Assembly (NCBI GenBank): GCA_937934275.1
Contig: CALHAM010000013.1
Span: 1-35,588 of the forward strand
Origin: an uncultured Saprospiraceae bacterium
GTDB taxonomy: Bacteria; Bacteroidota; Bacteroidia; Chitinophagales; Saprospiraceae
DNA: 35,588 bases
Reading direction: 5' to 3'
The translations under genes and the position numbers were made by a program. The notes beneath the pieces were generated by a model that was not told the DNA's origin, did no database searches, and saw only the letters and a list, made by a program, of their open reading frames with translations. Below are positions 1-16,081 of this stretch, piece by piece; position 1 is the stretch's first letter; every line of letters begins with the position of its first letter.

Positions 1-2
1 AA

Positions 3-164: not shown

Positions 165-199
165 TGTAAAAAAGATTTTTGAATGCCGAAAAAAGCCAG

Positions 200-1300: not shown

Positions 1301-1375
1301 GTCTGAATCGGAATATGCGGCAAAGTTGCACACGAGCGGGCAATCGCTGCTTCTGTGCAAGCCTAAAATACGCTA

Positions 1376-1783: not shown

Positions 1784-1864
1784 GGCAGTACTGTTTACTG
1801 TTGTTTCAGGTCTGATGAGCAAACGCCTTTTAAGGGCTTGCTGTTTCAAAGGGGTAGCCCTCAT

Positions 1865-2662
1865 TCACGGAGTTTTGAGGTCTACACATCCGAAGCCGAG
1901 GTATGGATACTCGCCAAAGCCGGCGTAATAACAAAATTCCATGAGAGGTTTAGGCATGCTGACTTCGAACTCGTAAAGGAAGCCGCGCAGTTGCGCCAGC
2001 CCATCCATGTTAGGCTTGAGGTGAATGAGGCGGGATTTGGCCTGCCCCAAAAGCCGATATTGCATGGGAAAAGACGGGTCGAGTAGCCCGAGAGCCATCA
2101 ACGAGCGATATTGCATAGCGGCCTTAAAGCGCCGGACAGCGTGGTTGAAAAAACTGATGTCGTAGGCGTCGCTATCGGGCAAGAGAAACTGATGGACGTT
2201 TTTCCCCTCTTCTACACCTGTGATGGATATGGGCGACAAAGCGCGAAATTGCATCGTGTCTTTGAGCAATGCTTTGGGCTGTACTTGCCAGTGTTTGACG
2301 TTGAACTGCGCCGGACCGCCCTCGAAAACGCCCAGTTCTAGAGGCGTATACCGAAACAACTGGATCACCTGATATTCATAGGCTGGGTCGAGATAGAGCG
2401 AAACAGTCAGCTTTACTTGTTGGCCCAGCAGCTTGAACTCTTGCCGCGCTTGGTCCATCTCATAAGGGTAGATGGCTAGAGGGCTAAAGGTGAAAAGCCG
2501 AAAGGTTCGCGTTCCTACGTCGAAGCCTAACTGCTGAATGTGTTGGGACAGCTCCGAACCCGCTTTAGAAAGCACCGTAAAGACCCAGTTTGAGATCTCA
2601 GACTGATAATTGATCGGAATAACGGTGCCCTTTTGGCATGAGAGGCTAAACTGAATGCGCAT
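1865..2662 (-). CDS. cas6: CRISPR-associated endoribonuclease Cas6
   Basis: 265 residues with the features of the Cas6 RAMP family, which cuts CRISPR precursor RNA within each repeat in type I and type III systems. The N-terminus (MRIQFSLSCQ, then IPINYQSEISNWVFTVL) matches the first ferredoxin-like strand and the helix typical of Cas6. FRLFTFSPL follows near residue 54. The C-terminus has the glycine-rich loop with the pattern GFGEYPYLGFGCV (about residues 248-260), a hallmark of the family. A histidine near residue 41 (HIQQLGF) is a candidate catalytic residue, though Cas6 active sites vary. No other cas gene and no repeat array lie in this window, so it would act in trans on an array elsewhere or be a remnant. 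The reading frame is intact. ATG at 2662 is the only sensible start. Confidence 0.85.
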   Translation of the reverse strand: MRIQFSLSCQKGTVIPINYQSEISNWVFTVLSKAGSELSQHIQQLGFDVGTRTFRLFTFSPLAIYPYEMDQARQEFKLLGQQVKLTVSLYLDPAYEYQVIQLFRYTPLELGVFEGGPAQFNVKHWQVQPKALLKDTMQFRALSPISITGVEEGKNVHQFLLPDSDAYDISFFNHAVRRFKAAMQYRSLMALGLLDPSFPMQYRLLGQAKSRLIHLKPNMDGLAQLRGFLYEFEVSMPKPLMEFCYYAGFGEYPYLGFGCVDLKTP

Positions 2663-2863
2663 AAAGGGTGTGCGTTGTGATTAAAGAGGAGATTATGCCC
2701 AACGATTTTGGGCCTAACCGCGTTTTTCAAACATTTGCTTCGATTTTACCGCGAAAAGTACGCAGACTTTAGATGTGGCTCAAAAAAAATAAGAAACGGG
2801 TGCTTTCACTCAAGAAACGGCGGGTTGTGGCGCTATTTTTTCGATGGCTTATGGTGAGCTAAA

Positions 2864-3898
2864 TCAAGATTCAAAGAAGGCGTCGTATTGGTTGCGACCG
2901 CGCGCCTCTTTTTTGGGGGGGTGGGCAGAGGCGTTGAGGTCGAGCACATTTTTAGGGTCTTCTGCCTGAGCAATTAAGGCATTTTTCTCTTTACCTAATA
3001 GGAAAGACACTCCTTCCTTTTCCCATTTTTCCAGCATGCGCAAGCCTTCTTCCTCGAAGACGCCGTTTTGCAAGTCGATGGAGTCCATAAAACTCTTCGA
3101 TAGATCCATAAAGCGCTCCATTTCACCCACTTTGCGCCCTACGTCTTCGGCCATAGCTTCCAAGGCCATGTCGTACATGTAGCGCTTGTCGCCGCTGCCC
3201 GTCAGGATGGACATAGCTGAGCGGATGGCCGAATGGCTAGCTTTTATGGCCTTGTACTCTTGCTCCTTAACGACGACTTGATCTTGCAGGTCCTCGAGCA
3301 TGATCTCGGAGGTTTCGTACATCTTGGTCAGCACGCGATAGAGCACCTCCATGCGCTTGTAAAGGTCTTCTAACTTCATATTGGACTCTTGCAGGCGACC
3401 CGCTCGGCGCGCTTTAAGCACCATAAGAGCATCCTTGCCGCTTTCCTTGGCCCGGCTAGCCATGCCCAAACTCGTCTGTATTTCGCGCTGGTTCTGTTTG
3501 ATCATTTCGCCCAATCGGTGCATCTGGCCGCGCAGCTGGCTGATCTGAGCGTTCATGTTCACCAAGTTTTTCTTCAAGTCTTCGATGTAGCTCTTCAAGA
3601 TGCCGATAGGGTCGAGCTGGACGAACAGGCCCGTGATCCAGCGCATGACGGACTTGTACATGAACCAAATCAAGTTGCGCATCTTAGGGTCTAACACCAC
3701 GTAGAGCAGACCGGCCAAAAGGGCCAGCAGACCGGCCAGATAGAGGGTATTTTCGGCCAGTTTGATCAGCGTAGGCAGCACTTGCACGAACAGGTAGCCA
3801 CCGCCGATGACAAGAGCCAACAGGAAAATAGCGCCCGTAATGCCTTCGGGGCGTTGCCAGAAGCTTTTGGGCTTGAGTGGTTGCATTTCGGCTTGCAT
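2864..3898 (-). CDS. Membrane-anchored coiled-coil protein, PspA-like
   Basis: 344 residues from the ATG at 3898 (a TTG two codons upstream is less likely). Two hydrophobic segments (about residues 20-45 and 50-68) precede a cytoplasmic region of nearly 250 residues dominated by long helices: LDPIGILKSYIEDLKKNLVN, heptad-rich QISQLRGQMHRLGEMIKQNQ, then EDLYKRMEVLYRVLTKM and so on. The layout and residue pattern recall the PspA/Vipp1 (ESCRT-III-like) helical fold, here with its own membrane anchor, but the similarity is of pattern only. The tail is charged and probably disordered. It lies 35 bases downstream of a small two-helix membrane protein and both are read leftward, suggesting one unit. 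A structural or membrane-stress role is plausible but not shown. Confidence 0.7.
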   Translation of the reverse strand: MQAEMQPLKPKSFWQRPEGITGAIFLLALVIGGGYLFVQVLPTLIKLAENTLYLAGLLALLAGLLYVVLDPKMRNLIWFMYKSVMRWITGLFVQLDPIGILKSYIEDLKKNLVNMNAQISQLRGQMHRLGEMIKQNQREIQTSLGMASRAKESGKDALMVLKARRAGRLQESNMKLEDLYKRMEVLYRVLTKMYETSEIMLEDLQDQVVVKEQEYKAIKASHSAIRSAMSILTGSGDKRYMYDMALEAMAEDVGRKVGEMERFMDLSKSFMDSIDLQNGVFEEEGLRMLEKWEKEGVSFLLGKEKNALIAQAEDPKNVLDLNASAHPPKKEARGRNQYDAFFES

Positions 3899-3933
3899 AA
3901 CCAATAATTAGAGGCGTTGAGAAAAGGTGTAAT

Positions 3934-4125
3934 TTAGTAAAAAAGTCGCATAAAGAATAGTCGCACCGATCGGCGAAACCGCTCATTGAAAATAAAGAGC
4001 AGAACGAAGGCCAAAACGACCACCCAAAATTCACTGACGACGACCTTTAGTACTTTGAAGGCCAGCCACAAAAACAAAAGGCCGGCGATGAAAACGGCCA
4101 TAGGATTTTTCAGCAGATCGTTCAT
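3934..4125 (-). CDS. Small two-helix membrane protein
   Basis: 63 residues, ATG at 4125. Almost all of it is two transmembrane helices: MAVFIAGLLFLWLAFKVL and, after a short turn, VVVLAFVLLFIFNERF, followed by a basic tail (RRSVRLFFMRLFY) likely to stay in the cytoplasm. It is the first gene of a probable two-gene unit with the anchored coiled-coil protein that follows 35 bases downstream. I know no named family. The pairing suggests that the two proteins form a membrane complex; that is inference from position. It is divergent from the glycosyltransferase gene on the plus strand. Confidence 0.6.
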   Translation of the reverse strand: MNDLLKNPMAVFIAGLLFLWLAFKVLKVVVSEFWVVVLAFVLLFIFNERFRRSVRLFFMRLFY

Positions 4126-4246
4126 ACGTATGGATGATGAAGGCCTTTAAACAGCGCTGACGCGATTTCAGCCTGCAAGTTACACGCATGTGGAAAATTC
4201 AAGGCTATCTATGGGGCACAAAACCGCTCGGCCTATCGTCGTCCAC

Positions 4247-4254
4247 TACCTTTG
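4247..4254 (+). promoter_or_regulatory. Bacteroidota -7 promoter element for the glycosyltransferase gene
   Basis: TACCTTTG matches the TAnnTTTG -7 consensus of Bacteroidota. No clear -33 TTG is seen. Its position argues that translation begins at or after 4263 rather than at the earlier in-frame ATG at 4188. Confidence 0.6.
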
Positions 4255-4277
4255 CGGCTCAAATGGATAATGCCTGC

Positions 4278-5003
4278 ATGCTCACCTTTGACGTTACCCT
4301 ACCCGTACTCAACGAAGAAGCCACCCTGAAGCGCCAAGTACACGTACTACATCAATTCTTGTGCGAGCATTTTCCGGCGCGTCGGCGCCAATGGCAAATC
4401 GTCATTGCCGACAACGGCAGCACCGATGCCACACCGCGCTTAGCGCTAGAGCTCTCCGACGAGTTGGCAGAAGTGAGGCTGGTTCGTGTGCCCAGCAAAG
4501 GTGTAGGGCTGGCGCTCAAAACCTCTTGGAGCCAAAGTGAGGCCGATATGGTGGGTTATATGGACTTAGACCTCGCTACGGACCTGAGCCACTTCATACA
4601 GGCGTATCACGCTCTGGCTACGGAAGGATACGATTTGGTCTACGGTACGCGGCTGCATCCTCGGGCGCGCGTGGTTGGGCGTACGTTCAAGCGCGAGATC
4701 ACCTCGCGGGTCTTCAATTTCATTGTTCGCCATTACTTGGGCACGCACTTTTCCGACGGTATGTGCGGCTTCAAATGGCTCAAACGCGAGTACGTGCCTG
4801 TTCTCATCGCTGGGGGTGCAGTCAGCGACGGCTGGTTTTTCAGCACCGAACTGCTCGCTGTGGCCGAGTGGCAAGGGCTGAAGATGTGCGAACTGCCCGT
4901 TCACTGGACCGATGACGCTGCTAACAGTAAGGTAAACATTCCTAAACTGGCCCGGCAATACTTAAAAGCCATGGCTGTTTTAAAAAAAAGAAAACCGCGA
5001 TGA
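4278..5003 (+). CDS. Family 2 glycosyltransferase (dolichyl-phosphate-sugar-synthase type)
   Basis: A GT-A fold transferase that would move a sugar from a nucleotide donor, most often to a polyprenyl phosphate. The core shows DVTLPVLNEEATL, VIADNGSTDAT, the K-G-x-G-x-A motif (SKGVGLALKTS), the metal-binding MDLDLATDL and YGTRLHPRARV. It ends with basic KKRKPR and no transmembrane anchor domain. About 241 residues from the ATG at 4278. The ATG at 4263 is equally in frame, and one at 4188 lies upstream of the likely promoter element, so I disfavour it. The stop overlaps the start of the aldo/keto reductase gene by four bases (ATGA), so the two are translationally coupled. Acceptor and donor cannot be told from sequence. 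Confidence 0.85.
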   Translation: MLTFDVTLPVLNEEATLKRQVHVLHQFLCEHFPARRRQWQIVIADNGSTDATPRLALELSDELAEVRLVRVPSKGVGLALKTSWSQSEADMVGYMDLDLATDLSHFIQAYHALATEGYDLVYGTRLHPRARVVGRTFKREITSRVFNFIVRHYLGTHFSDGMCGFKWLKREYVPVLIAGGAVSDGWFFSTELLAVAEWQGLKMCELPVHWTDDAANSKVNIPKLARQYLKAMAVLKKRKPR

Positions 5004-5926
5004 AGGCCAAACAATTACTGTTGGGTACGGCCCAATGGGCCTGGACAGTGAGCCGAGAGCAGGCATTCCAATTGCTCGATGAATGGCTCAAGGCCGGTCA
5101 AAGAGGCATAGACTGCGCCACCAACTACCCCATCGACAAAAACCCGGCGCATTTCCGCGCCGCCGAGGGTTTTTTGCTGGAATACCTCCGAGCGCACGGC
5201 CTAAGCAATTTACAGATTACGATGAAAATCGGCGCTCTCGACAACTTGCGCTCGCCCGAAATCAACCTATCGCCTTCCTTCGTGCGCATGATGACCGCCG
5301 AATACCGCCGCCTGCTGGGCAGTAACCTACACACCGCCATGCTCCACTGGGACAACCGAGACGACCCAGCGACCATTGCCGACACTTTGGAGGCCCTTCT
5401 CGATGCCTGTCGACAAGAGGGGCTCCGACCAGGGCTTTCCGGTATCCGGTATCCAGACGTGTATGCGCCCGTCGTGGAAGCCCTTCAGGCGTCGTTGGAT
5501 ATCCAACTCAAGCACAACGTACTCCACTCCGACCTACCTCGATACGCTCCCTTTCAGCGCTCGGCCCATCGCTACTTCGCCTACGGCATCAACGCTGGCG
5601 GGCTTAAGTTGAAGGGCGAATACACCTCCAACAGTGCCCTTAAAGCGCGCGGCGGCGACCCCTCGGCTGCCGAAGCCCTATTGGCCCGCATGCGCGCGGC
5701 AATACCCCAATGGAATACGGCTTTCGTTCGCCCACCCATCACGGGCTTTTACCAAATAGGCCTGCTGTTCGCTGCGCTCCAACCTCGTCTGGACGGCATT
5801 GTCTTGGGCTGCTCCTCCGCTGCGCAATTGCGCCAAACGCTCAACTTTTGGCGCGATTTGGAGACGTTCGACTATGCCGATGTTTTCGCGCAGTTGGAAA
5901 AAATGACCGCCCAACAAGCGACATGA
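5000..5926 (+). CDS. Aldo/keto reductase family protein
   Basis: 308 residues with a TIM-barrel aldo/keto reductase layout. The four catalytic residues of the family are all present in order: D38 and Y43 (RGIDCATNY), K76 (ITMKIG) and H116 (AMLHWDN). Enzymes of this kind use NAD(P)H to reduce carbonyl groups of sugars and other small molecules. The N-terminal LLLGTAQW is the family's first strand. It is coupled by a four-base overlap to the upstream glycosyltransferase, so it may work on a sugar or sugar nucleotide for the same glycan. A role as an oxidoreductase in an unrelated pathway is also possible. The end of the protein (FAQLEKMTAQQAT) is complete. Confidence 0.85.
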   Translation: MKAKQLLLGTAQWAWTVSREQAFQLLDEWLKAGQRGIDCATNYPIDKNPAHFRAAEGFLLEYLRAHGLSNLQITMKIGALDNLRSPEINLSPSFVRMMTAEYRRLLGSNLHTAMLHWDNRDDPATIADTLEALLDACRQEGLRPGLSGIRYPDVYAPVVEALQASLDIQLKHNVLHSDLPRYAPFQRSAHRYFAYGINAGGLKLKGEYTSNSALKARGGDPSAAEALLARMRAAIPQWNTAFVRPPITGFYQIGLLFAALQPRLDGIVLGCSSAAQLRQTLNFWRDLETFDYADVFAQLEKMTAQQAT

Positions 5927-6088
5927 CTCAGCCTTCGTTCACTGCCCAACCCTAACCTTTGAGCCATGCCCTCTTTGCTCCAGATCGCAAAAACTCTCAC
6001 AGGGGAAAAACGCAGATTTGCCGACCTTTGCTCCAACGCAAACGATAAAATGCGCAAACAGCGCTAACCAAACACGCTCAGAATCACT

Positions 6089-6451
6089 GTGGAAGATTGG
6101 GAATTAGATTTTGAGTGGCTGCGTGTGCGGCATGAGGTGAAAGACGCCATGAAGCGCGAAGCGCTTCCTGATCTGAACACTATGCTGTTTCTTATCGGCA
6201 TTCAGGAATTAGGGCGCTGGAAAAAGCACTTCACCAAAGAGGAAAAACAGGACCTCATGCACATTGCTGTCTGCCGACTGTTGGCCTACGAGGGCTACTA
6301 CGAGTTTGTAGGGCGCGACGCCGACGGCTGGCCTCACTGGCGGCAAGTAGGCGGTCTTCAGCCCCTGTCTTTGCCTCAGCAAGAGCGCTTGCTCAAGGAA
6401 AAAATTATTCAATATTTCAAAGACTTGGAAGCAGAGCGAAATCAGGAATGA
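6089..6451 (+). CDS. Conserved hypothetical protein, GTG start
   Basis: 120 residues beginning at a GTG codon; an in-frame stop at 6065-6067 leaves no room for an earlier ATG. The protein is soluble, acidic and aromatic-rich (EDWELDFEWLRVRHEVKDAM, LIGIQELGRW, YEFVGRDADGWPHW), with no signal peptide or membrane segment. I recognise it as the type of small protein common next to housekeeping genes in Bacteroidota, but know of no function. The stop overlaps the start of the cyclophilin gene by four bases (ATGA), so the two are probably made together. The 160 bases upstream hold no clear gene; a 33-codon frame at 5966-6067 is possible but unsupported. Confidence 0.7.
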   Translation: MEDWELDFEWLRVRHEVKDAMKREALPDLNTMLFLIGIQELGRWKKHFTKEEKQDLMHIAVCRLLAYEGYYEFVGRDADGWPHWRQVGGLQPLSLPQQERLLKEKIIQYFKDLEAERNQE

Positions 6452-7086
6452 AAGCTCAGGCCTTACTTTTTTCCCTTTTGATGTTATGGGCCGGTTGCCA
6501 GCCTCAGCCGGTGGTGGTCCGTATCGAAACAAACTTCGGCGATATTCGCGTGCGGCTCTACGATGAGACGCCGCTGCATCGCGACAACTTTCTGCAGCTC
6601 GTCCGCTCGGGCTTTTACGATAGCTTGCTGTTTCACCGCGTTGTTCGGGACTTCGTCATTCAGGGCGGCGATCCTACGTCGAAGTATGCAGCGCCGGGTG
6701 CAGTGCTGGGTACGGGCGAAGTAGGCTACACCATACCGGCAGAAATACGCTTTCCGCACGTGCGCGGCGCGCTGTCGGCAGCGCGTCTATCGGATGCCGT
6801 CAATCCACAGCGCGCTTCGGACGGCAGCCAATTCTACATCGTGCAAGGGCGCGTGCACACCGATGCCTCCTTAGATGAGTTAGAGCGGCTGATGGGCATC
6901 CGATTTAGTCCACAGTGGCGCGCTCAATACAAAACTGTAGGCGGAACACCCCAATTGGACGGGCAATACACGGTTTTTGGCCAAGTCATTTCGGGGCTTG
7001 AGGTGGTGGACCGCATCGCCGCCTTGCCCTGCGACGCCAACGACCGACCGCTAGAAGACGTCCGTATGAAGGTGCGCATCGAATAA
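6448..7086 (+). CDS. Peptidyl-prolyl cis-trans isomerase, cyclophilin type, lipoprotein
   Basis: 212 residues. The first 17 form a lipoprotein signal with the lipobox LWAGC, so the mature enzyme is anchored in the periplasm, where it would assist protein folding by turning proline peptide bonds. The cyclophilin core follows directly: VRIETNFGDIRVRLYDETP, the active-site strand FHRVVRDFVIQGGDP, DGSQFYIVQG and TVFGQVISGLEVVDRI. An insert of about 30 residues (LDELERLMGIRFSPQW) between the last motifs is usual in Bacteroidota members. Start ATG at 6448 overlaps the previous stop. Confidence 0.92.
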   Translation: MKAQALLFSLLMLWAGCQPQPVVVRIETNFGDIRVRLYDETPLHRDNFLQLVRSGFYDSLLFHRVVRDFVIQGGDPTSKYAAPGAVLGTGEVGYTIPAEIRFPHVRGALSAARLSDAVNPQRASDGSQFYIVQGRVHTDASLDELERLMGIRFSPQWRAQYKTVGGTPQLDGQYTVFGQVISGLEVVDRIAALPCDANDRPLEDVRMKVRIE

Positions 7087-7155
7087 CACCTTAGGCGCTT
7101 CTCGTATCCAGAACGGTGAGAAGGTAAGGGCTACGGCTTAAGCGATAAAAAGCGC

Positions 7156-7184
7156 TTGCAGCGCCAATAGGCGTGCTACCTTTG
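7156..7184 (+). promoter_or_regulatory. Bacteroidota promoter for the sugar-acid gene cluster
   Basis: TTG at 7156-7158 and TACCTTTG at 7177-7184 are 18 bases apart, matching the -33/-7 promoter pattern of Bacteroidota. The first start codon follows at 7211. This is the best candidate for the transcription start of the cluster that begins here. Confidence 0.7.
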
Positions 7185-7210
7185 CCGCGCTTTCCATCAA
7201 AACACGACTC

Positions 7211-8248
7211 ATGAGCAGGAAAAAGATCCTATTTGTAGTGGGTTCTCCCAACCAAACCACCCAGATGCATCAGATTGCCAGCCACCTGCAGGAGGAATTT
7301 GAGTGCTGGTTTACGCAATTCTTCCCAGACTCACCCTTAGAAAAATGGGCGCTTAAGGCCGGCTTATTGGAAAATACCATCATGGGTGGCAAATTCAAAG
7401 CGTATGCCGACCGCTATTTGAGCGAGCACCGCCTTCAGATGGATTATATGGGGCAGCGCAACCACTATGATTTGGCTGTGTTGTGTTCCGACTTATTGGT
7501 GCCGCGCCGCCTGCGGGCCATTAAGACCGTTTGGGTGCAGGAGGGCATGACTGACCCGGCGAATTTCTTGACGCATGTGGTGCAAAAGGTGCGTGTCCTG
7601 CCCCGCTACTTAACGTTCAACACTTCTCTCAATGGCGCCTCCAACCTCTGCGACATCTACTGTGTAGCTTCCGAAGGCTATAAGGAGCACTTTGCTCGCA
7701 TGGGTACTGAACCAGCGAAAATCGTCGTTACGGGGATGCCCAATTACGATGACCTACACCGCCATTTGGACAACGACTTTCCGCACCGGGGCTACGTGCT
7801 GGTGGTTACTTCCGACATTCGCGAGACCTTCCGCTACGAAAATCGGCCGGCCTTCTTGCGCAAGTGTGCGCGCATTGCGGCGGGCCGCCCTATGATATTT
7901 AAATTGCACCCCAATGAAAATGCCGAGCGCGCCGTGCGCGAAATTCGGGAAGTTATCGGCCCTGAGCCGTTGATATTTGCTGAGGGGGATGCTTACGCTA
8001 TGATCGCCAACTGCGATGAGCTCATCTGCCAGTATTCCACGCTGGTCTATGTGGGCATTGTATTGGGCAAAAAAGTGCATTCCTATTTCGACTTAGAGCA
8101 ATTGCGTCGGTTAGCCCCTTGGCAAAACGGCGGCACTTCGGCTCGGCGCATTGCCGACTTTTGCCGGCAGTATTTGGCCTTTCCCGAAAAAAATGGCCCT
8201 GCGTTTCTGCGCAGCATAGGCATAACAGAAACTGCTCTTTTGGCGTGA
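7211..8248 (+). CDS. GT-B fold glycosyl- or glycerophosphotransferase-like protein
   Basis: 345 residues in a Rossmann-type two-domain arrangement: an N-terminal KKILFVVGSPNQTTQMHQIASHL typical of GT-B enzymes, and a C-terminal donor domain with PMIFKLHPNENAERAVREI, the 'HPNE' motif seen in CDP-glycerol glycerophosphotransferases, capsule transferases and UDP-GlcNAc 2-epimerase-like proteins. The donor site near IANCDELICQYSTLVYVGI is also of that type. It probably transfers a CMP/CDP- or NDP-activated residue to a glycan, perhaps the very sugar made by the next genes, but an epimerase-like role cannot be ruled out. First gene of the cluster, behind a good promoter; its TGA overlaps the GTG of the cytidylyltransferase. 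Confidence 0.65.
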   Translation: MSRKKILFVVGSPNQTTQMHQIASHLQEEFECWFTQFFPDSPLEKWALKAGLLENTIMGGKFKAYADRYLSEHRLQMDYMGQRNHYDLAVLCSDLLVPRRLRAIKTVWVQEGMTDPANFLTHVVQKVRVLPRYLTFNTSLNGASNLCDIYCVASEGYKEHFARMGTEPAKIVVTGMPNYDDLHRHLDNDFPHRGYVLVVTSDIRETFRYENRPAFLRKCARIAAGRPMIFKLHPNENAERAVREIREVIGPEPLIFAEGDAYAMIANCDELICQYSTLVYVGIVLGKKVHSYFDLEQLRRLAPWQNGGTSARRIADFCRQYLAFPEKNGPAFLRSIGITETALLA

Positions 8249-9039
8249 GACACATCGTTACCGTCGTTCAGGCGCGCGTAGGCTCCTCCCGCCTTCCGGG
8301 TAAAGTGCTGCTCGACCTCGTCGGTCAGCCGCTGCTGCTGCGCATGGTTGAGCGCGTGCAAGCCGCCCAACGCGTGGGCACCCTCGTGGTGGCTACTACC
8401 GCAGAGCCTACCGACGACCCTATCGAGGCCCTATGCCTTCAGCATGGCCTGCCCTGCTACCGCGGCAGCACCGATGACCTGCTCGACCGACATTACCAGG
8501 TCGGCCTTCTGTGGAAAGCGGACGCTGTGGCTAAAATTCCCTCAGACTGCCCTCTGATCGACCCTGCCGTTATTGACCGCGTCTTCGAGGTTTTCCTGCA
8601 AAATGCGTTTGACTACGTCAGCAACCTGCACCCTGCTACTTATCCCGATGGCAACGACGTAGAAGTCATGACTATGGCCGCCTTAGAAACTGCCTGGAAA
8701 GAAGCACAACGGCCCTTCGAGCGCGAACACACCACGCCGTTCTTGTGGGAAAACCCCGAGCGCTTTTCGCTGGGCAACGTCTGCTGGGAAACTGGCTTAA
8801 ACTACTCCATGACGCACCGCTGGACGATTGACTACCCTGAAGATTACGCCTTCATCCGCGCCGTGTATGAGGAACTGTACCCGAAAAACCCGCGCTTCGG
8901 CCTGCAGGAGGTGCTCGACTTGACTGCGCGCCGACCCGATATCTTTGCCCTCAACAGCCAATATGCCGGTGTCAACTGGTATCGGCATCATTTACACGAA
9001 CTCAAAACCATCACTGCTGACCAAACTCGACAAGTGTGA
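8245..9039 (+). CDS. SpsF/NeuA-like cytidylyltransferase
   Basis: 264 residues from a GTG that overlaps the previous stop (GTGA). The signature loop VVQARVGSSRLPGKVL (residues 7-22) is that of the CMP-sugar synthetase group containing SpsF, NeuA and KdsB, followed by VVATTAEPTDDPI, STDDLLDRHYQV and KIPSDCPLIDP, the metal and sugar binding region. It would activate a 2-keto sugar acid as its CMP derivative with CTP. Pairing with the PEP-condensing synthase and the phosphatase downstream is the standard three-gene set for ulosonic acids. Earlier in-frame starts lie inside the upstream gene and code for a sequence without family features. Its own stop overlaps the GTG start of the next gene. Confidence 0.85.
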   Translation: MRHIVTVVQARVGSSRLPGKVLLDLVGQPLLLRMVERVQAAQRVGTLVVATTAEPTDDPIEALCLQHGLPCYRGSTDDLLDRHYQVGLLWKADAVAKIPSDCPLIDPAVIDRVFEVFLQNAFDYVSNLHPATYPDGNDVEVMTMAALETAWKEAQRPFEREHTTPFLWENPERFSLGNVCWETGLNYSMTHRWTIDYPEDYAFIRAVYEELYPKNPRFGLQEVLDLTARRPDIFALNSQYAGVNWYRHHLHELKTITADQTRQV

Positions 9040-9908
9040 CGACCGTAAGCTCTTCTCCTTCCACCCCCGCCGAATTGGCCTCCTTAGCTCTGCGCGTGCG
9101 CGAGCATATCCTACGTCTCTCAACTGACGGCGGCTGTTTCACGGGCGCTTCGCTTTCCTGTGCCGACTTGTTCGTCTTCCTCTATACGCGCTTCTTGCGC
9201 ATTCGGCCGGATGGTTTACAAGATCCGGAGCGCGATTACTTGCTGCTTTCTAAAGGCCACGACGTGCCCGCCCTTTATGCTACCTTAGTCGAGCTGGGCT
9301 GGATGCCCCCTGAGCGTCTGCAAAATCATCTGAAAACCAACGATCTCATTTATTGGCACCCCAACCGCCACATCCCTGGAGTAGAGTTTCACTCTGGCTC
9401 TCTGGGCCACTTGCCCGCCGTTGGGCTGGGCATAGCCCTCGATATCCGGCTGCGCGGTGGGCCAAACCGCGTCGTCGTGGTTACGGGCGATGGCGAGCTC
9501 GACGAAGGCTCCGTTTGGGAGGCGCTGCTGGTGGCTTCCGCTTACCAGCTAGACAACCTCATCATTGTGGTGGACCGCAACCACTTTCAGGCCAATGTGC
9601 GCACCGAGGAGCTCATCCCTCTGGAACCGCTCGTGCCCAAATTCGAGGCCTTCGGCTGTGCGGTAGAGCGCATTGATGGCCACGACTTTGCCCAAATGGA
9701 AGCGGCCTTCAGCCGCGTGCCCTTCCAAGCCGGTAAGCCCAGCGTCATCGTGGCCGACACAGTGCGCGGCAAAGGCGTGCCCAGCATCGAGGCGCGTGCC
9801 GATCGCTGGTTCTGCAACTTTACCCACGAGGAGGTGGAAGCCCTCGTGCGCGAGTTACGGGGCGAAGCCCAAGCTCACTTGACCTCAGAAACCCTTACCG
9901 TCCGCTAA
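9036..9908 (+). CDS. Transketolase, N-terminal (thiamine diphosphate binding) half
   Basis: 290 residues from a GTG overlapping the previous stop. This is a separate first subunit of a split transketolase. The thiamine-diphosphate motif is complete: GDGELDEG at 151-158 through N182 (VVDRN). Other family motifs: LSKGHDVPALYATLVELG, FHSGSLGHLPAVGLGIAL and DTVRGKGVP. Such enzymes move two-carbon ketol units between sugar phosphates. The cofactor's second-side glutamate is on the next gene's product, so the two must act as a complex. Full-length household transketolase is a single chain of about 660 residues, so this pair is a pathway-specific version. Confidence 0.93.
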   Translation: MTTVSSSPSTPAELASLALRVREHILRLSTDGGCFTGASLSCADLFVFLYTRFLRIRPDGLQDPERDYLLLSKGHDVPALYATLVELGWMPPERLQNHLKTNDLIYWHPNRHIPGVEFHSGSLGHLPAVGLGIALDIRLRGGPNRVVVVTGDGELDEGSVWEALLVASAYQLDNLIIVVDRNHFQANVRTEELIPLEPLVPKFEAFGCAVERIDGHDFAQMEAAFSRVPFQAGKPSVIVADTVRGKGVPSIEARADRWFCNFTHEEVEALVRELRGEAQAHLTSETLTVR

Positions 9909-9923
9909 CGCCACCCACAATAC

Positions 9924-10823
9924 ATGAACTATCAGGAACTCATCCGCCAGACGGCCCTTAATGACGAGCGCATTATCGTGATGACCGCTGAAAACCGCGC
10001 CGTGCTGCGCGAATTGCCGCCGGTGTTGGGGCCGCGCTTCCTCGATGTAGGCATTGCCGAGCAAACCCTGATCGGCGCTGCTGCAGGCTTAGCCCTGCGC
10101 GGGCGTATCCCCATTTGCCACGCTCTGGCGCCTTTCCTCATCTATCGCGCCTACGAATTCGTGCGCACCGACGTGGGCATTGCCCACCTGCCCGTCAAGC
10201 TGAGCAGCTGGATTGCCGGCTTCCTCTCCGAAGCCAACGGCCCTACCCACCAAGCCATCGAAGATGTGGCTCTCATGCGCGCCATCCCGGGCATGACGGT
10301 CTTCTGCCCAGCCGATGAGGCCGATATGCTGGCCATGTTGCCGGCCATTTGGGCCTCCCCTGACCCCGCCTACGTACGCCTCATTGTGCGCAAGACGGAC
10401 TACACCCACGCTCCTTTTGAAATAGGGAAAGCCGAAGTGGTCGCTCAAGGGACCGACGTTACGCTGCTCGTCTATGGCCTGCTCTTCGACGAAGCTCGCC
10501 AGGCCGCTCGCCTGCTCGAGCAAGAGGGTTTAAGTGTGGGCCTGATTAACATGCGCTCGCTCAAGCCCGTTGATGAGGCCGCTATTGTGCGCGCTGCTCA
10601 AGAGTCGAAGAGACTTATAACCATCGAAGATCACCTGCTCACCGGAGGCCTATACAGCATCGTGGCTGAGGTGCTGCTCAAACACCGCATTACCGCCGAC
10701 GTACAGCCGCTCGCTTTAGAGGAGCGCTGGTTCCGACCGGCGCTGCTGCCCGATGTGCTGGCCTTCGAAGGCTTTACGGCCGAGCAAATCGCCCGGCGTA
10801 TTACCCTGCCCATTTGGGTGTGA
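9924..10823 (+). CDS. Transketolase, C-terminal (pyrimidine binding) half
   Basis: 299 residues, ATG at 9924, 15 bases after the N-terminal half. It carries the pyrimidine-binding domain with FLDVGIAEQ, where E46 should activate the cofactor, then FLIYRAYEFVRTDVGI, NGPTHQAIEDVALMRAIPGM and the substrate-binding VFCPADEADM. The C-terminal domain (VTLLVYGLLFDEARQAARLL, IEDHLLTGGLYSIVAE) is present. With the preceding gene it forms a two-subunit transketolase. The coupling inside a cluster with an aminotransferase and a PEP-condensing synthase implies that it makes or uses an unusual, probably amino-substituted, sugar phosphate. That substrate is inferred. Confidence 0.93.
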   Translation: MNYQELIRQTALNDERIIVMTAENRAVLRELPPVLGPRFLDVGIAEQTLIGAAAGLALRGRIPICHALAPFLIYRAYEFVRTDVGIAHLPVKLSSWIAGFLSEANGPTHQAIEDVALMRAIPGMTVFCPADEADMLAMLPAIWASPDPAYVRLIVRKTDYTHAPFEIGKAEVVAQGTDVTLLVYGLLFDEARQAARLLEQEGLSVGLINMRSLKPVDEAAIVRAAQESKRLITIEDHLLTGGLYSIVAEVLLKHRITADVQPLALEERWFRPALLPDVLAFEGFTAEQIARRITLPIWV

Positions 10824-10995
10824 GGGCGTTGCTAAGCACAGCCCGCCAAAGGAGGTTGCTGGCTTTTGCGAAAGCAGCGACGCAGGAGCAAAGCCCGCCT
10901 TACATTCCTTTGCACCAACCTTTGTGCTCTTCAAGCCGCTTTTATTTTCAAACTAACAGGCCGAGCCAACTCGGTCGTCAAAACACGGTAACGAC

Positions 10996-12309
10996 ATGCC
11001 CAACACGGTATCGCTCAATGCAGATTACCCCAACATTTCCAAATCGCAGGAACTACTGGCTAAGGCCCGTCAAATTATGCACCCCGTCACTCAGACGCTG
11101 GCCAAAGGCCCAGGGCAGTGGAGCCGTGGAGTGGCTCCGGTGTACTTAGAGCGCGGCAAGGGCGCTCGCGTGTGGGATGTGGACGGCAACGAGTACCTCG
11201 ACTACACCATGGGCGTTGGCCCCATTTCGCTGGGCTACTGCTACGAGCGCGTAGACGCCGCCATCCGCGAGCAATTGGAGCGCGGCATCACTTTTTCGCT
11301 TATGCATCGGTTGGAGTACGAGGCCGCGGCGGCCGTTCAACAAGCGGTGCCCTACGCCGAAAGCGTGCGCATTTCGAAGACGGGTTGCGACGTAACTTCC
11401 GCAGCTGTCCGTCTGGCTCGGGCTTTTACGGGGCGCGATGTCGTCGTGTGCTGTGGCTATCACGGCTGGCACGATTGGTACATCAGCACCACGCCGCGCA
11501 ATGCCGGCATTCCGGAGGCAGTACGCCGACTGACGCGTACGTTTTCCTACAACAACCTCGACAGCTTGCGCGCTGTGCTCGATCAAGACGTGGCCTGCGT
11601 CATCTTAGAACCAGTGGTGTTCGAAGCACCGCGCGACAATTTCTTGCACGAGGTGGCGCGCTTAACGCGTGAAAACGGCTCACTGCTCATTTTCGACGAG
11701 ATGTGGACGGGCTTCCGTCTGGCGGTGGGGGGGGCGCAAGAGTACTTCGGCGTTCAGGCCGATTTAGCCTGCTTCTCTAAAGCGGTGGCCAACGGCATGC
11801 CCATCTCGTTCTTGACGGGTCGCCAAGACGTCATCAGCCAAGGGGAGCACGACGTGTTCATCTTCACTACTTTCGGTGGCGAGGCCCTCTCGCTGGCGGC
11901 CACCATCGCCACTATTGCCGAAATTCGGGAAAAGAACGTGCCGGCCTATTTGGCCCAACAGGGCAAAAAACTGAAAGACGGTTACAACGCCCTGGCGGCG
12001 CGGTTTGAACTCCAAGGCGCTACGCACTGTATGGGTTTCGACTGCCGCACTCTCATCCACTTTACCGGGCAGGGGGGCGACCCACTCGTACTCAAAACCC
12101 TTATGCAGCAAGAGATGCTCAAGCGCGGCGTGCTGTGGGGCGGTTTCCATAACCTATCCTTTAGCCATACCGATGCCGATATAGCTTACACGCTGGAGGC
12201 CTATGAGGACGCTTTCCCAGTGCTCAAAAGCGCTATCGAAAGTGGAAAGCCGGAGCAGTTCTTGCGCGGTGAGGTGCTGGAAATGGTGTTTCGGAAAACG
12301 AAGTACTAA
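10996..12309 (+). CDS. Class III (glutamate-1-semialdehyde type) aminotransferase
   Basis: 437 residues with the fold-type I PLP layout. Visible features: substrate gate VWDVDGNEYLDYTMGVGPISLGY, phosphate site SKTGCDVTSAAVRLARAFTG, D234 (FDEMWTGFR) that holds the PLP ring nitrogen, and the Schiff-base lysine K262 (CFSKAVANGMP). The sequence resembles GSA-aminomutase-like proteins, but hemL itself is normally in a haem cluster, and the setting here argues for amination of a sugar. A 172-base gap separates it from the transketolase; it includes a small hairpin (CCGAG/CTCGG near 10964-10977) and a near-match to the promoter element (AACCTTTG near 10917), so it may have its own promoter. Confidence 0.9.
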   Translation: MPNTVSLNADYPNISKSQELLAKARQIMHPVTQTLAKGPGQWSRGVAPVYLERGKGARVWDVDGNEYLDYTMGVGPISLGYCYERVDAAIREQLERGITFSLMHRLEYEAAAAVQQAVPYAESVRISKTGCDVTSAAVRLARAFTGRDVVVCCGYHGWHDWYISTTPRNAGIPEAVRRLTRTFSYNNLDSLRAVLDQDVACVILEPVVFEAPRDNFLHEVARLTRENGSLLIFDEMWTGFRLAVGGAQEYFGVQADLACFSKAVANGMPISFLTGRQDVISQGEHDVFIFTTFGGEALSLAATIATIAEIREKNVPAYLAQQGKKLKDGYNALAARFELQGATHCMGFDCRTLIHFTGQGGDPLVLKTLMQQEMLKRGVLWGGFHNLSFSHTDADIAYTLEAYEDAFPVLKSAIESGKPEQFLRGEVLEMVFRKTKY

Positions 12310-12327
12310 CAGTAGCGCTGCGCCTAA

Positions 12328-13143
12328 ATGCCTTTCGCTATGGATCTCTTTTCTTTGAAGAACAAGACTGCTGTAGTAACGGGAGCCTGTGGCCTTTTGG
12401 GCCGCGAACACTGCTGCGCCTTAGCCGAAGCAGGCGCGTCGGTCGTGGCTATCGATGTAGACGAGGATGCCTGTCGGGCTTTGGCCTCAGCGCTGGGGCC
12501 TCAGCACATGGGCCTAAAGGCCGATGTAACGGATCGCGCTTCGCTAGAATGCGTGCGCGATGCCGTCTTAGCGCACTACGGCTCGATAGATGTGTTGGTC
12601 AACAACGCTGCCATTAACGACATGTTTGAAAACCCAGCGCTGGCCGCTCAGCAGTCGATGTTTGAGCATTACCCGCTCCAGATGTGGCGCCAATCGCTGG
12701 AGGTAAACGTTACGGGCGTCTTCCTGTGCGCTCAGGTGTTTGGCACCGTGATGGCCCAACAAGGGCGCGGCAGCATCATCAACATCGCTTCCACCTACGG
12801 CATGGTAGGCCCCGACCAAAGCATCTACCAAAACGAGCGCGGCGAGCAGACGTTCTACAAGTCACCGGCTTACCCGACTACGAAAGGAGCCATCCTCAAT
12901 TTTACGCGCTATTTGGCAGCCTACTGGGGCCGCAAGGGTGTCCGAGTGAATACGCTCTCTCCCGGCGGCGTAGAAAACAACCAGGAGCCTTTCTTCATTC
13001 AAAACTACGCGCGCAAGACAGCCCTGGGGCGCATGGCGCAACCCTCCGACTATCGCGGCGCCATCGTCTTTTTGGCTAGCGATGCCTCGGCCTACATGAC
13101 AGGGGCCAACTTAGTGGTGGACGGCGGTTGGACGGCGATGTAG
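12328..13143 (+). CDS. Short-chain dehydrogenase/reductase, PtmA-like
   Basis: 271 residues from ATG 12328 (267 from the ATG at 12340, which begins right at the family core; both are possible). The coenzyme loop is TGACGLLG, a variant of TGxxxGxG also seen in flagellin-modification PtmA-type oxidoreductases. LVNNAAIND and, counted from 12340, the catalytic S151 (IASTYG) and Y178-x3-K182 (YPTTK) are present. A longer linker than usual ([18 protein letters not shown]) lies between serine and tyrosine. The end [19 protein letters not shown] is typical. It would oxidise a sugar hydroxyl, producing the ketone for the neighbouring aminotransferase, or reduce one. Confidence 0.88.
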
Positions 13144-13250
13144 CGCAGGAAAAAATACTGCCTGCTCTTGGCATTCAACGCTTGCTCACAAAAATGAGGA
13201 CATGACGCATTCTCCTTCTTCTTGCCTTAAACACTCCAAACGCTTGGCGT

Positions 13251-13775
13251 ATGGCGACTCACACTGACGAGGTGCTTGCCGAAAAAGCCGCTCGCCTTCG
13301 GCTGCTACTGACCGACTGCGATGGAGTACTGACGGATGCCGGTGTGTATTACTCGGCTGAGGGCGAAGCCCTTAAGCGATTTTCCATCCGCGACGGCATG
13401 GGCGTGGAGCGCCTGCGCCAGCTTTGTGGCGTGGACGTGGGCATCATGACGGGCGAAAACTCGCCCATTGTAGCGCGAAGAGCGGAGAAGTTGCACATCA
13501 CGCACCTGTACTTGGGCGTCAAGAACAAGGCGGCTCGCTTGAGCGATATTTTGCAGGCCCACCACCTGCAGCCCGACCAGATCGCTTTCATTGGAGACGA
13601 CATGAACGACTGGGAAGTGCTGCAACTCGTCGGTTTATCTGCTTGCCCTGCCGACGCATTGCCACCCATCAGAGCCGTCGTAGACTATGTTTGCGCCCAG
13701 CCGGGAGGCCATGGCGCCTTTCGCGAGTTTGCCGAATGGATCATTCACCTAAGAACAAATACTCCGCAGCTTTAG
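13251..13775 (+). CDS. KdsC-like HAD phosphatase
   Basis: 174 residues, the size of C0-type HAD phosphatases such as KdsC. Motif I is D22-x-D24 (LLTDCDGVLTD), motif III/IV is GDDMND at 115-120, and VKNKAARL supplies the motif-III lysine. Such enzymes remove the phosphate from 8- or 9-phosphate ulosonic acids after the PEP condensation, before CMP activation. The active enzyme is usually a homotetramer. No cap domain is seen, as expected. ATG at 13251 follows a 107-base spacer without a gene; the stop is 44 bases before the synthase gene. Confidence 0.88.
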   Translation: MATHTDEVLAEKAARLRLLLTDCDGVLTDAGVYYSAEGEALKRFSIRDGMGVERLRQLCGVDVGIMTGENSPIVARRAEKLHITHLYLGVKNKAARLSDILQAHHLQPDQIAFIGDDMNDWEVLQLVGLSACPADALPPIRAVVDYVCAQPGGHGAFREFAEWIIHLRTNTPQL

Positions 13776-13819
13776 GCTGTTCTTTTCACCTACATACGCA
13801 CAAGCATAAACGCATCTGT

Positions 13820-14695
13820 ATGAGCATCATCGAATTGCCTAATGGCCGCAAAATTGGTCGCGGCCAACCCTGTTTTCTCATCGCCGAAATTGGTATCAAC
13901 CACAACGGCTCCTTGGAATTGGCCTTGCGCCTCATCGAAGAGGCAGCGAAAGCCGGCTTTGACGCAGTGAAATTTCAGAAGCGCACTCCTGAACTGTGCA
14001 CCCCGCGCGACCAGTGGGACATCATGCGCGACACCCCGTGGGGGCGCATGCGCTACATCGACTACCGCTATAAGGTAGAACTGGGCGAGGCTGAATACGC
14101 CGCCATTGACCAGTTCGCTCGCCAGCACGACATCCTCTGGTTTGCCTCGTGCTGGGACGAGCCTTCGGTGGACTTCATCGAGCAGTTCAACGTGCCGCTG
14201 TACAAGGCCGCTTCTGCTTCGCTGACGGACATCGCCTTGTTGAAAAAGAAAAAAGCCACGGGCAAGCCGCTCATCCTTTCTACCGGTATGTCTACCATGG
14301 AAGAAATCGAAGCGGCCGTGGCGGCCGTAGGCACCGACCGCTTGCTCCTTGCTCACGCCACATCGGCCTATCCGTGCGCCGTTCAGGAGTTGAACTTGCG
14401 CATGATCCACACCCTTCAACAGCGTTATCCCGACGTGCCCATTGGCTATTCGGGCCATGAGACTGGCTTGGCCCCCACGTTGGCGGCTGTAGCGCTCGGA
14501 GCCTGCTTTGTGGAGCGCCACGTAACGCTCGATCGCGCGATGTGGGGCTCTGACCAGGCCGCCTCGGTCGAACCCGTAGGTATGGCTAAATTGGTGCGCG
14601 ATATTCGCGACATTGAAGCCGCCTTAGGCGACGGCGTCAAGCGCGTTTACGAAAGCGAAATGGGGCAGCGCCAAAAGCTGCGCCGGGTCAAGTAA
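13820..14695 (+). CDS. NeuB-like PEP-condensing synthase without SAF domain
   Basis: 291 residues from ATG 13820. The TIM-barrel core of the N-acetylneuraminate synthase family is complete: FLIAEIGINHNG (E23, H28), DAVKFQKR, ILWFASCWDEPSVDF, YKAASASLTD, LILSTGMSTMEEI, GYSGHETGL and the metal/substrate region FVERHVTLDRAMWGSDQAASVEP (H234). It should join phosphoenolpyruvate to an aldose to give a 3-deoxy-2-ulosonic acid. Most NeuB, LegI and PseI proteins are about 340 residues long and end in an antifreeze-like SAF domain that completes the active site of the partner chain; here the protein stops at KRVYESEMGQRQKLRRVK, just where that domain would begin. No frameshifted SAF remnant is evident downstream. 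An in-frame start upstream lies within the phosphatase gene and is rejected. Confidence 0.9.
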   Translation: MSIIELPNGRKIGRGQPCFLIAEIGINHNGSLELALRLIEEAAKAGFDAVKFQKRTPELCTPRDQWDIMRDTPWGRMRYIDYRYKVELGEAEYAAIDQFARQHDILWFASCWDEPSVDFIEQFNVPLYKAASASLTDIALLKKKKATGKPLILSTGMSTMEEIEAAVAAVGTDRLLLAHATSAYPCAVQELNLRMIHTLQQRYPDVPIGYSGHETGLAPTLAAVALGACFVERHVTLDRAMWGSDQAASVEPVGMAKLVRDIRDIEAALGDGVKRVYESEMGQRQKLRRVK

Positions 14696-14747
14696 CTACC
14701 CTTAACTTTCGCCGAAAAAGGTATTTCCAATAAATGCGGAGAACGAT

Positions 14748-15701
14748 ATGGACTTGCTCACCCTAACTACAGCGATCCTCTTAGGCTGGATGCTGTTCAT
14801 CATCGCTTTAGAGCGGCGCTTTCCCTACACGCCTGGGTTGAAGCTTTTCCGCGAGGGCTGGTGGCTCGATTTGGTGTGGTATACGCTCATTCAGAGCTAT
14901 CTGCTGAAGATTCTTATCTTCGACTACCTGATTGCGCCCGCTAAATCGGCCTTGGGGTTTTCGGAAATGGGCTACCTGTCGCATTGGCCTGTGTGGGCCT
15001 TGGTCCTGCTCTTTCTTCTGACTCACGACCTGTACATTTATTGGTTTCACCGCTGGCAACACCACAACAAAGTGCTGTGGCGCACCCACGAGGCGCACCA
15101 TTCAGTTAAGACGGTGGACTGGCTGGCCGGCTCGCGCTCTCATGCGCTGGAGATCATCATCAATCAGACCGTAGAGTTCGCGCCCATCGTCTTCTTACTC
15201 GACAACAAGACGGCTGCTGTGGTCATTCCTATAAAGGCACTCATCGACGCCATGTGGGGCATGTGGATCCACGCCAATATTGATGTGAACTTGGGCAAGT
15301 TGCAGTATTTCATCAACGGCCCGCAAATGCACCAATGGCACCACGCCAACCACCGCGAGGTCTTCTACGCCAACTATGCCACAAAGTTTGCCTTTTTCGA
15401 TTGGATTTTCGGCACGGGCTTTTTGCCCGGCCTTAAGCCGCTCAAGTACGCTATCTTAAAACCGCGTGAATACGGCTTGCCCTACGACTATCCGCGCGAC
15501 TATTTCCTCCAACATTGGTTTTCTTTTTGGCGCTTCGATGTGAAAAAGGTGGAAAGCCATCCGTGGGTAAGGCCCTACCTCGAGTGGCGGCAAACGCTGC
15601 TGCGCGGGTTGGGTTTTGGGAAAGACCGCCATCCACAAACTGCCGCCGAAACGCCGCCTCCCACTGCCGATCTGGTGCCAACTTCTGTGCCTCCGCCATG
15701 A
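14748..15701 (+). CDS. Fatty acid hydroxylase / sterol desaturase family membrane protein
   Basis: 317 residues, ATG 14748 preceded by a purine-rich GCGGAGAACGAT. An integral membrane di-iron oxygenase of the fatty-acid-hydroxylase superfamily. The histidine clusters are all present: HDLYIYWFHRWQHH (from H93), HEAHHS (H114-H118) and MHQWHHANH (from H195). At least four hydrophobic segments lie between about residues 5 and 180. Proteins of this family hydroxylate or desaturate lipids; no substrate can be named. The C-terminal 20 residues are proline-rich. It ends in a four-base overlap with the transporter gene, so the two are coupled, and follows the synthase by 52 bases. Whether it belongs to the sugar-acid pathway is unclear. 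Confidence 0.9.
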   Translation: MDLLTLTTAILLGWMLFIIALERRFPYTPGLKLFREGWWLDLVWYTLIQSYLLKILIFDYLIAPAKSALGFSEMGYLSHWPVWALVLLFLLTHDLYIYWFHRWQHHNKVLWRTHEAHHSVKTVDWLAGSRSHALEIIINQTVEFAPIVFLLDNKTAAVVIPIKALIDAMWGMWIHANIDVNLGKLQYFINGPQMHQWHHANHREVFYANYATKFAFFDWIFGTGFLPGLKPLKYAILKPREYGLPYDYPRDYFLQHWFSFWRFDVKKVESHPWVRPYLEWRQTLLRGLGFGKDRHPQTAAETPPPTADLVPTSVPPP

Positions 15702-16081
15702 ATCCTTGGTTTGCTTTAGCTATTGCCTCTGGCATGGAGGTGTGCTGGATTTACAGCCTTAAGTGGCTCGATTTCAGGCGCATCGCTGCTTTTGGCCTTC
15801 CGCGTCTTTTGCTGGAGTGGGAAGGGTGGTTGGCCCTGATGCCGCTGTTGGGCTACATCGCCTTCGGCCTAGCCAACATCTATTTTTTTTCGCTGGCTAT
15901 GAAAGGCATTCCGCCCTCTACGGCTTTTGCTGCCTGGATGGGCTTGGCGCTGGTGGGCACGAAAGTCGTCGGCGTCGCCTTATTTCGGGAAGAGTGGAGC
16001 TGGACACAGGTGCTGTTTATCGCCCTCATCTTGGTGGGTGTGGTGGGGTTGAAATACGGGGAAAAGGCGGGCAGCGAATAG
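15698..16081 (+). CDS. Small multidrug resistance (SMR/EmrE-like) transporter
   Basis: 127 residues with four transmembrane helices. The first helix MNPWFALAIASGMEVCWIYS carries the conserved membrane glutamate (E14) that exchanges protons. The last two helices (TAFAAWMGLALVGTKVVGVALF and VLFIALILVGVVGLKY) match the SMR end. Members pump cationic drugs, guanidine-like metabolites or, in the ArnE/ArnF relatives, lipid-linked sugars. The start overlaps the previous stop (ATGA). The family is usually about 105-110 residues long; the extra length is in the loops. A role in moving a lipid or lipid-linked sugar made nearby is a guess from position. Confidence 0.85.
   Translation: MNPWFALAIASGMEVCWIYSLKWLDFRRIAAFGLPRLLLEWEGWLALMPLLGYIAFGLANIYFFSLAMKGIPPSTAFAAWMGLALVGTKVVGVALFREEWSWTQVLFIALILVGVVGLKYGEKAGSE

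Follow-up and report, generated by a model that had tools for sequence, protein, structure and literature searches.

The window analyzed here, a 35,588-nucleotide stretch of DNA from an uncultured Saprospiraceae bacterium (contig 13 of a 3.43 Mb assembly, 99.9% complete, whose nearest named relatives are Saprospiraceae metagenome-assembled genomes, MAGs), contains a run of sugar-acid genes that includes a transketolase (TK) encoded as two separate halves (TKN and TKC). The run at positions 7211–14695 had been singled out in an initial annotation made from the sequence alone, and the analysis found all the enzyme families named there, open and on a single strand, with intergenic gaps of −4 to 172 bases (Table 1). 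These comprise a GT-B fold protein (GTB), an SpsF-type cytidylyltransferase, the TK pair, a class III aminotransferase (AT3), an SDR oxidoreductase, a KdsC-like phosphatase, and a NeuB-like synthase that condenses phosphoenolpyruvate (PEP). The limits first given for the run hold for these genes; the run itself continues to 16081 with a fatty acid (FA) hydroxylase gene and an SMR-family transporter gene, which overlap by 4 bases and both recur in relatives.

Table 1. Genes of the run at positions 7211–16081 of the window (PLP, pyridoxal phosphate; CMP, cytidine monophosphate).
Gene product	Position	Strand	Supporting evidence
GTB, GT-B fold protein, probable CMP-ulosonate transferase	7211..8248	+	AlphaFold model, Foldseek, aligned motifs
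SpsF-type cytidylyltransferase	8245..9039	+	GTG start at 8245 overlaps GTB stop; PF02348 98.5 bits (cut-off 22.6); best solved relative 6oew
TKN, Transketolase_N half, acceptor-site residues replaced	9036..9908	+	PF00456 89.1 bits; best solved relative 6yak split TK
TKC, Transket_pyr + Transketolase_C half, phosphate-site residues replaced	9924..10823	+	PF02779, PF02780; 6yaj
AT3, HemL-like class III PLP aminotransferase	10996..12309	+	PF00202 149.8 bits; PRK06209 397.9 bits (cut-off 486)
SDR oxidoreductase	12328..13143	+	PF13561 168.6 bits; YPTTK at residue 182
KdsC-like HAD phosphatase	13251..13775	+	TIGR01670 152.5 bits (cut-off 106.95); DCDG and GDDMND motifs
NeuB-like PEP-condensing synthase without SAF domain	13820..14695	+	PF03102; best solved relative 6ncs, 290 amino acids (aa)
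FA_hydroxylase (sterol-desaturase superfamily), distantly OlsE-like, co-conserved	14748..15701	+	PF04116 94.2 bits
SMR-family small transporter, co-conserved	15698..16081	+	PF00893 49.6 bits

Conservation and distribution of the cassette

Relatives of the locus were collected by scanning GTDB contigs with aligned TK N-half sequences, and 382 stretches were found to encode a relative at an E-value of 1e-3. The best 80 of these (loci L044–L123) carry record labels of Bacteroidota (68), Ignavibacteriota (5), Chloroflexota (2), Pseudomonadota (1), Bdellovibrionota (1), and Calditrichota (1), with two unassigned, bearing in mind that some MAG taxon labels may reflect binning errors. One contig labelled Competibacteraceae (L061) displays the Flavobacteriales-type GTB-SpsF-TKN arrangement, possibly such an error. 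The 80 loci were picked by TKN, so TK presence among them is by selection. Gene content was counted in the 58 loci extending at least 7 kb after and at least 2.5 kb before TKN: SpsF was present in 58, GTB in 57, TKC, AT3, and SDR in 53 each, NeuB in 52, the hydroxylase in 48, and KdsC in 38. The SMR gene was found in 51 of 98 scanned sequences (overlapping and contig-cut loci counted), and the same eight enzymes are encoded on a Methylomagnum plasmid, which has neither the hydroxylase nor the SMR gene. This set of about ten genes, common to several phyla, is a real conserved cassette rather than a chance arrangement, and it has apparently spread horizontally.

As a sample free of this selection, 395 genomes of the phylum were searched, with chosen E-value cut-offs of 1e-80, 1e-120, and 1e-80 for the three gene searches. 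At these cut-offs, the genomes form nested sets without exception, the 40 with TKN lying within the 53 with AT3, which in turn lie within the 138 with NeuB; TKN and AT3 are at most 8 kb apart in 37 of the 40. Co-occurrence of the families across genomes, which the initial annotation had put forward as a check, is seen in the 58 long loci and, for TKN, AT3, and NeuB, in the nested sets.

Thirteen of the 53 AT3 genomes are without a cassette-type TKN, and in 12 of these the locus reads GTB-SpsF-AT3-SDR-KdsC-NeuB-hydroxylase; it contains no TK, and no cassette-type TKN was found genome-wide (E 1e-80). In the thirteenth (locus L187, genome G455), a 652-aa full-length TK-like gene of a different kind (12173–14131, minus strand) fills the slot of the split pair; using the residue numbering given below, its product keeps H26 and H261, and does not keep R358, S385, D469, or R520. 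NeuB occurs without this TKN in 98 of the 138 genomes and without AT3 in 85, which mainly belong to one family of small genomes (f34), probably Chlorobiaceae as we read it from gene content (an htpG-like open reading frame, ORF, is present in two of the three loci with listed ORFs). In the seven f34 loci fetched (L174–L180), a 70–73% identical NeuB and KdsC are the sole cassette genes. Among 11 NeuB genomes with neither a TKN nor an AT3 match, an SpsF match (E 1e-15) was found in three, 61–62% identical in two of them.

Dispersed cassette genes still co-occur: in genomes outside the sample, AT3 was found in nine of ten searched, away from the TKN locus in eight and inside the cassette in one (L121). 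The tenth is an exception, with GTB-SpsF-TKN present and no AT3 match (G063, locus L053). In two genomes of the same order (L041 and L042), an orphan cassette-type TKN was noted with AT3 on another contig; the gene adjoining this TKN is presumably tgt (queuine tRNA transglycosylase). In an AT3 tree built by a quick method from 61 of 85 rows (Hymenobacter thinned from 32 to 8), the TK-less cassettes fell into one weakly supported group with Ignavibacteria and Melioribacter rows, and the presence or absence of TK changed state at least four times.

A phage origin was considered and rejected: none of the 33 viral-contig stretches with the TKN pattern encodes a relative, and the best of three NeuB matches in a phage collection is 46% identical. 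This match (L130, 10001–10813) lies in a marine Kyanoviridae virus, with an SDR gene and a cytidylyltransferase-like one close by, and another NeuB relative, 43% identical, lies in the 484-kb record of an uncultured phage (L131, 10001–10804). Window positions 12328–14695 gave no DNA match to E. coli genomes. Upstream of the cassette, a Cas6-type gene (PF01881) was noted on the minus strand at 1865–2662, and no CRISPR-like direct-repeat array was found near it in window positions 1–7200. A published description of the cassette was not found in the open-licence library searched.

Substrate-site residues of the split transketolase

The TK halves were compared residue by residue using E. coli TktA numbering, in an alignment of 88 cassette TKN and 75 cassette TKC. 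In all 88 TKN, H26 is replaced by F, R91 by L, and H261 (by alignment column) by W; in all 75 TKC, H461 is replaced by V, I, or F, D469 by N, and R520 by a residue other than R or K. Residues H66, H100, G114, E411, and H473 are kept throughout both sets. The comparison set consisted of other split TKs of relatives (23 TKN and 12 TKC), presumed to be housekeeping enzymes from their similarity. Here, H26, H66, H100, and H261 are kept in 23/23 and R91 in 22/23, and F434, H461, D469, and R520 are kept in 11/12, the exception being the same locus for both halves (L015, genome G043). An end-to-end alignment showed agreement at 13/13 sites for the full-length TK of the window genome and for five other split TKs; in six cassette TKs, eight of the 13 are different, including F434 and, in 6/6, R358 and S385 (the results at the latter two sites rest on this alignment with six cassette TKs only).

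The substrate-binding set of the Lactobacillus salivarius TK comprises His28, His263, Ser384, Arg357, Arg520, His461, and Asp469, as given in PMC4601599; the equivalence with E. coli numbering is our own. In E. coli TK, D469 pairs with R91, and the S385Y/D469T/R520Q changes shifted the enzyme from phosphorylated to non-phosphorylated aldehydes, and then to aliphatic and aromatic ones, according to PMC5073344.

The cassette TK retains its donor and catalytic residues, while its acceptor/phosphate pocket has been rebuilt to be mostly neutral and apolar. The suspicion in the initial annotation that this pair is no ordinary TK is strengthened by the residue changes in 88/88 TKN and 75/75 TKC, and we rejected an ordinary phosphosugar TK on the same residue comparisons. 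Most simply, the cassette TK would transfer a ketol and use a non-phosphorylated aldehyde, given that a neutral and apolar acceptor pocket most likely points to transfer of a two-carbon ketol to such a substrate. The residues that would hold the phosphate of an acceptor or leaving aldehyde are lost, which makes the enzyme a poor fit to an amino-tetrose phosphate, as this substrate would need them.

Sugar-acid enzymes and the lipid link

The window NeuB (291 aa) is the sole NeuB found in the genome, and the 78 extracted cassette NeuB proteins are 292–312 aa long (that of the window including two extra leading residues). SiaC chains in the PDB are 349 aa; the difference in length presumably corresponds to the SAF domain, for which the short cassette NeuB has no space at its C-terminus. 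No NeuC/LegG was found genome-wide over cut-off (best 38.1 against 235.9 bits), nor was PseB (best 51 against 407.75 bits; the LegB and LegC models were not searched). For the two families searched, the reported absence of enzymes of the uridine diphosphate (UDP) N-acetylhexosamine routes thus holds beyond the window, with no such genes elsewhere in the genome to feed the synthase, which supports a CMP-ulosonate-type pathway independent of them.

With the YrbI-family model (TIGR01670), the cassette KdsC scores above cut-off, and it reaches 161.2 bits on the model for the 9-phosphate phosphatase of 2-keto-3-deoxynononic acid (KDN), below its cut-off of 180. Five KDN-9-P phosphatases over that cut-off adjoin NeuB proteins only 32–40% identical, of which one was measurable at full length (344 aa). 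We therefore set aside a Bacteroides-type KDN cluster, as the synthase and phosphatase are not of that kind, though a KDN-like acid could itself be the product. Ordinary synthesis of 3-deoxy-manno-octulosonic acid (Kdo) was also rejected, given that another contig of the genome already carries a KdsA over cut-off. A possible connection with the O-antigen genes of Leptospira was not confirmed. A 57% identical NeuB was noted in Nonomuraea gerenzanensis (L127, 17482–18834), with KdsC-like and GT2 neighbors and no TK or AT3 in the locus.

The PLP lysine of AT3 is kept in 85/85 aligned sequences, and R24 and E399, which we take to be the substrate-site residues of HemL, are replaced by K and W, respectively, in 85/85. 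Because of these replacements, and with a score of 237.8 bits on the HemL model (cut-off 527.3), AT3 was rejected as a HemL glutamate-1-semialdehyde aminomutase. The best NCBIfam matches of the SDR are generic.

GTB showed no Pfam family match over cut-off (Epimerase_2, 24.0 against 30.6 bits), and its AlphaFold model (mean pLDDT 89, pTM 0.88) predicts a GT-B fold. Foldseek ranked GT-B epimerases at the top, followed by the CMP-bound capsule enzyme 8a0c, TarL (8va1), and a polysialyltransferase (5wc6). Across the 17 aligned sequences, Q110-E111-G112 and H233-P234 are invariant, the E-G and HP motifs lying 122 residues apart. In PMC2169525, D/E-D/E-G and HP are described as motifs with a function in bacterial sialyltransferases, and in the meningococcal polysialyltransferase (NmB) the corresponding E153 and H278 are 125 residues apart, with mutation impairing activity. 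We tried GTB as a NeuC/WecB epimerase, a reading lowered by an HHalign probability of 0.3% to E. coli WecB and by the sub-cut-off Epimerase_2 score; since epimerases head the fold matches, it is only lowered. GTB is probably a sialyltransferase-like CMP-ulosonate transferase, as judged from its predicted fold and motifs.

The sole NCBIfam match of the hydroxylase is OlsE (82.5 bits against a cut-off of 475), and its histidine residues are invariant in 10/10 aligned sequences. Among the loci collected up to that point, tblastn revealed OlsF or OlsB/OlsA-like genes at seven loci in all, besides an own-genome match of L173. OlsF over cut-off (710–724 against 620 bits) adjoins the cassette in three (L108, L109, and L183), OlsB/OlsA-like pairs below cut-off adjoin three others (L032, L086, and L199), and in one cassette genome (G101) a second NeuB copy adjoins OlsF over cut-off (L189, 9810–12727). 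PMC4484230 links OlsF with ornithine and lysine lipids and OlsE with hydroxylation of the head group. The transporter- or flippase-like neighbors of the cassette vary with lineage (SMR, LPG_synthase_TM, or LplT). This linkage supports, without proving, a lipid as the acceptor or partner.

Proposed pathway and comparison with known systems

From the genes observed above, how they are conserved and nested across genomes, and the residues changed in the TK, we infer a pathway whose substrates and product are all our proposal: a CMP-activated 3-deoxy-ulosonic acid, probably amino-substituted, would be made and transferred to an acceptor in the membrane, which is probably a lipid, with the TK acting optionally on a non-phosphorylated aldehyde. 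We give this reading about even odds (roughly 0.5). NeuB would condense PEP with a sugar phosphate of ordinary metabolism and KdsC would dephosphorylate the product, as suggested by their families and pairing. The SDR could then oxidize one hydroxyl and AT3 aminate the resulting carbonyl, SpsF would form the CMP-sugar in keeping with its family, and GTB may transfer the sugar moiety in a sialyltransferase-like manner. Judging by linkage, the FA hydroxylase and small transporter may modify and move the lipid. The split TK would be an optional later or side step, placing a two-carbon ketol onto a non-phosphorylated aldehyde. Its absence from 12 cassettes, together with the occurrence of NeuB and KdsC without TK or AT3, indicates that TK is not needed upstream of NeuB, and the nesting of TK within AT3 within NeuB likewise places it later or to the side rather than as the supplier of the synthase.

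Several observations weigh against this proposal. The 85 genomes with NeuB and no AT3 may use another aldose and, as they are mainly of one family, they are not independent. A housekeeping TK could stand in where the cassette TK is absent, and the amine could sit on another sugar instead of on the ulosonic acid. The loss of TKC sites is not unique to the cassette: the L015 split TK keeps H26 and H261 and is changed at R91, F434, H461, D469, and R520, its genome has a second split TKN elsewhere, and no sign was found that the pair or its short locus belongs to the cassette. GTB has Q at a D/E position of the sialyltransferase motif, and UDP-N-acetylglucosamine 2-epimerases lead its fold matches. 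On the lipid side, the hydroxylase falls far below the OlsE cut-off, the Ols linkage covers only seven loci, none labelled with the window's own class, and the window genome's OlsF-like gene lies on another contig and scores 255 against 620 bits.

A different division of labor is conceivable, in which NeuB, KdsC, and SpsF make CMP-KDN or a similar compound, and TK, AT3, and SDR make a separate partner that GTB glycosylates, for example an amino alcohol or sphingoid-like lipid base derived from a fatty aldehyde. The mostly neutral or apolar TK pocket, the hydroxylase and acyltransferase links, the 161 bits of KdsC on the KDN-9-P phosphatase model, and the Nonomuraea locus, where the 57% identical NeuB and its KdsC-like neighbor lack the rest of the cassette, would all suit such a scheme. 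However, AT3 and SDR persist in the 12 TK-less cassettes, which makes both independent of the TK product, and the five KDN-9-P phosphatases over cut-off sit beside NeuB proteins of only 32–40% identity, so that we consider this scheme rather unlikely.

The initial annotation had instead proposed, in the manner of the aminoshikimate route, that SDR, AT3, and TK build an amino-aldose phosphate for extension by NeuB. The same kinds of enzyme do occur in a single operon, in a genome with no NeuC/LegG or PseB over cut-off; TKN is always accompanied by AT3 and NeuB in the 395-genome sample, and an unrelated TK-like gene occupies the same slot in L187. As the maker of the aldose for the synthase, however, the TK fares poorly: it is missing from the 12 cassettes, 98 of the 138 NeuB genomes have no TKN, the seven f34 loci fetched contain nothing of the cassette but NeuB and KdsC, and the phosphate-site residues are lost. 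We regard this route as unlikely. A relic or moonlighting set serving ordinary pentose metabolism and surface polysaccharide, with no special product, fits with the canonical TK and KdsA already in the genome and is made highly improbable by gene order, reading frames, and TK-specific residue changes that are strongly conserved from phylum to phylum.

Returning to the optional-TK pathway, a bolder and improbable version has the TK extend an ulosonic-acid-derived or fatty aldehyde by two carbons, with AT3 aminating the new ketone. This would yield either an amino-ulosonic acid extended by two carbons or an amino-alcohol lipid bearing an ulosonic acid, carried on an OlsF-type aminolipid as a bacterial glycolipid not seen before. 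The cassette suggests that a sugar pathway of the cell surface or of lipids is widespread, including in cultured Hymenobacter and Mucilaginibacter strains. Related genomes with the same cassette with and without TK offer a natural comparison, from which the chemical role of TK might be deduced in paired lipid or glycan mass spectra.

Among known systems, the 8-amino-Kdo (KdnA/KdnB) route may offer a parallel. The route to 3-amino-5-hydroxybenzoic acid (AHBA), that is, the aminoshikimate route, shares with the cassette a two-subunit TK, an oxidoreductase, an aminotransferase, and a PEP-condensing enzyme. However, the AHBA aminotransferase is DegT-type and its synthase of aminoDAHP (amino-3-deoxy-arabino-heptulosonate 7-phosphate) is DAHP-synthase-type, whereas the cassette has a class III aminotransferase and NeuB, and its TK is without a phosphate site and dispensable. 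The aminoshikimate likeness drawn in the initial annotation therefore does not extend to families, and the analogy holds solely at the level of enzyme kinds.

Nonulosonic acid routes, such as Bacillus subtilis sps (PMC7439481), share with the cassette a NeuB-family synthase, an SpsF-kind cytidylyltransferase, and CMP-sugar transfer. In contrast to them, the cassette has no NeuC/LegG or PseB over cut-off, its synthase is without an SAF domain, and it adds a class III aminotransferase, a KdsC phosphatase, and a TK. What is new relative to known CMP-ulosonate biosynthesis is the TK and the lipid connection. With bacterial sialyl- and polysialyltransferases (PMC2169525), GTB shares the predicted GT-B fold, the E-G and HP motifs, and the expected CMP-ulosonate donor, but it has Q for the first acidic residue and matches no family over cut-off. 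The ornithine lipid genes OlsF, OlsBA, and OlsE (PMC4484230) find parallels in OlsF over cut-off beside four related loci and in a hydroxylase of the OlsE superfamily, the latter far below the OlsE cut-off and with no OlsF beside the window cassette. The Carboxydothermus split TK (6yaj/6yak) has the same two-chain architecture and the nearest solved sequences, but in the cassette TK the substrate-site residues are replaced (E. coli numbering). Finally, the cassette TK is changed at the same acceptor-site positions as the evolved E. coli TK S385Y/D469T/R520Q (PMC5073344), although here the changes are natural and more numerous (also H26, R91, H261, R358, F434, and H461), so that the cassette TK appears to have been retuned in nature at positions also altered by enzyme engineers.

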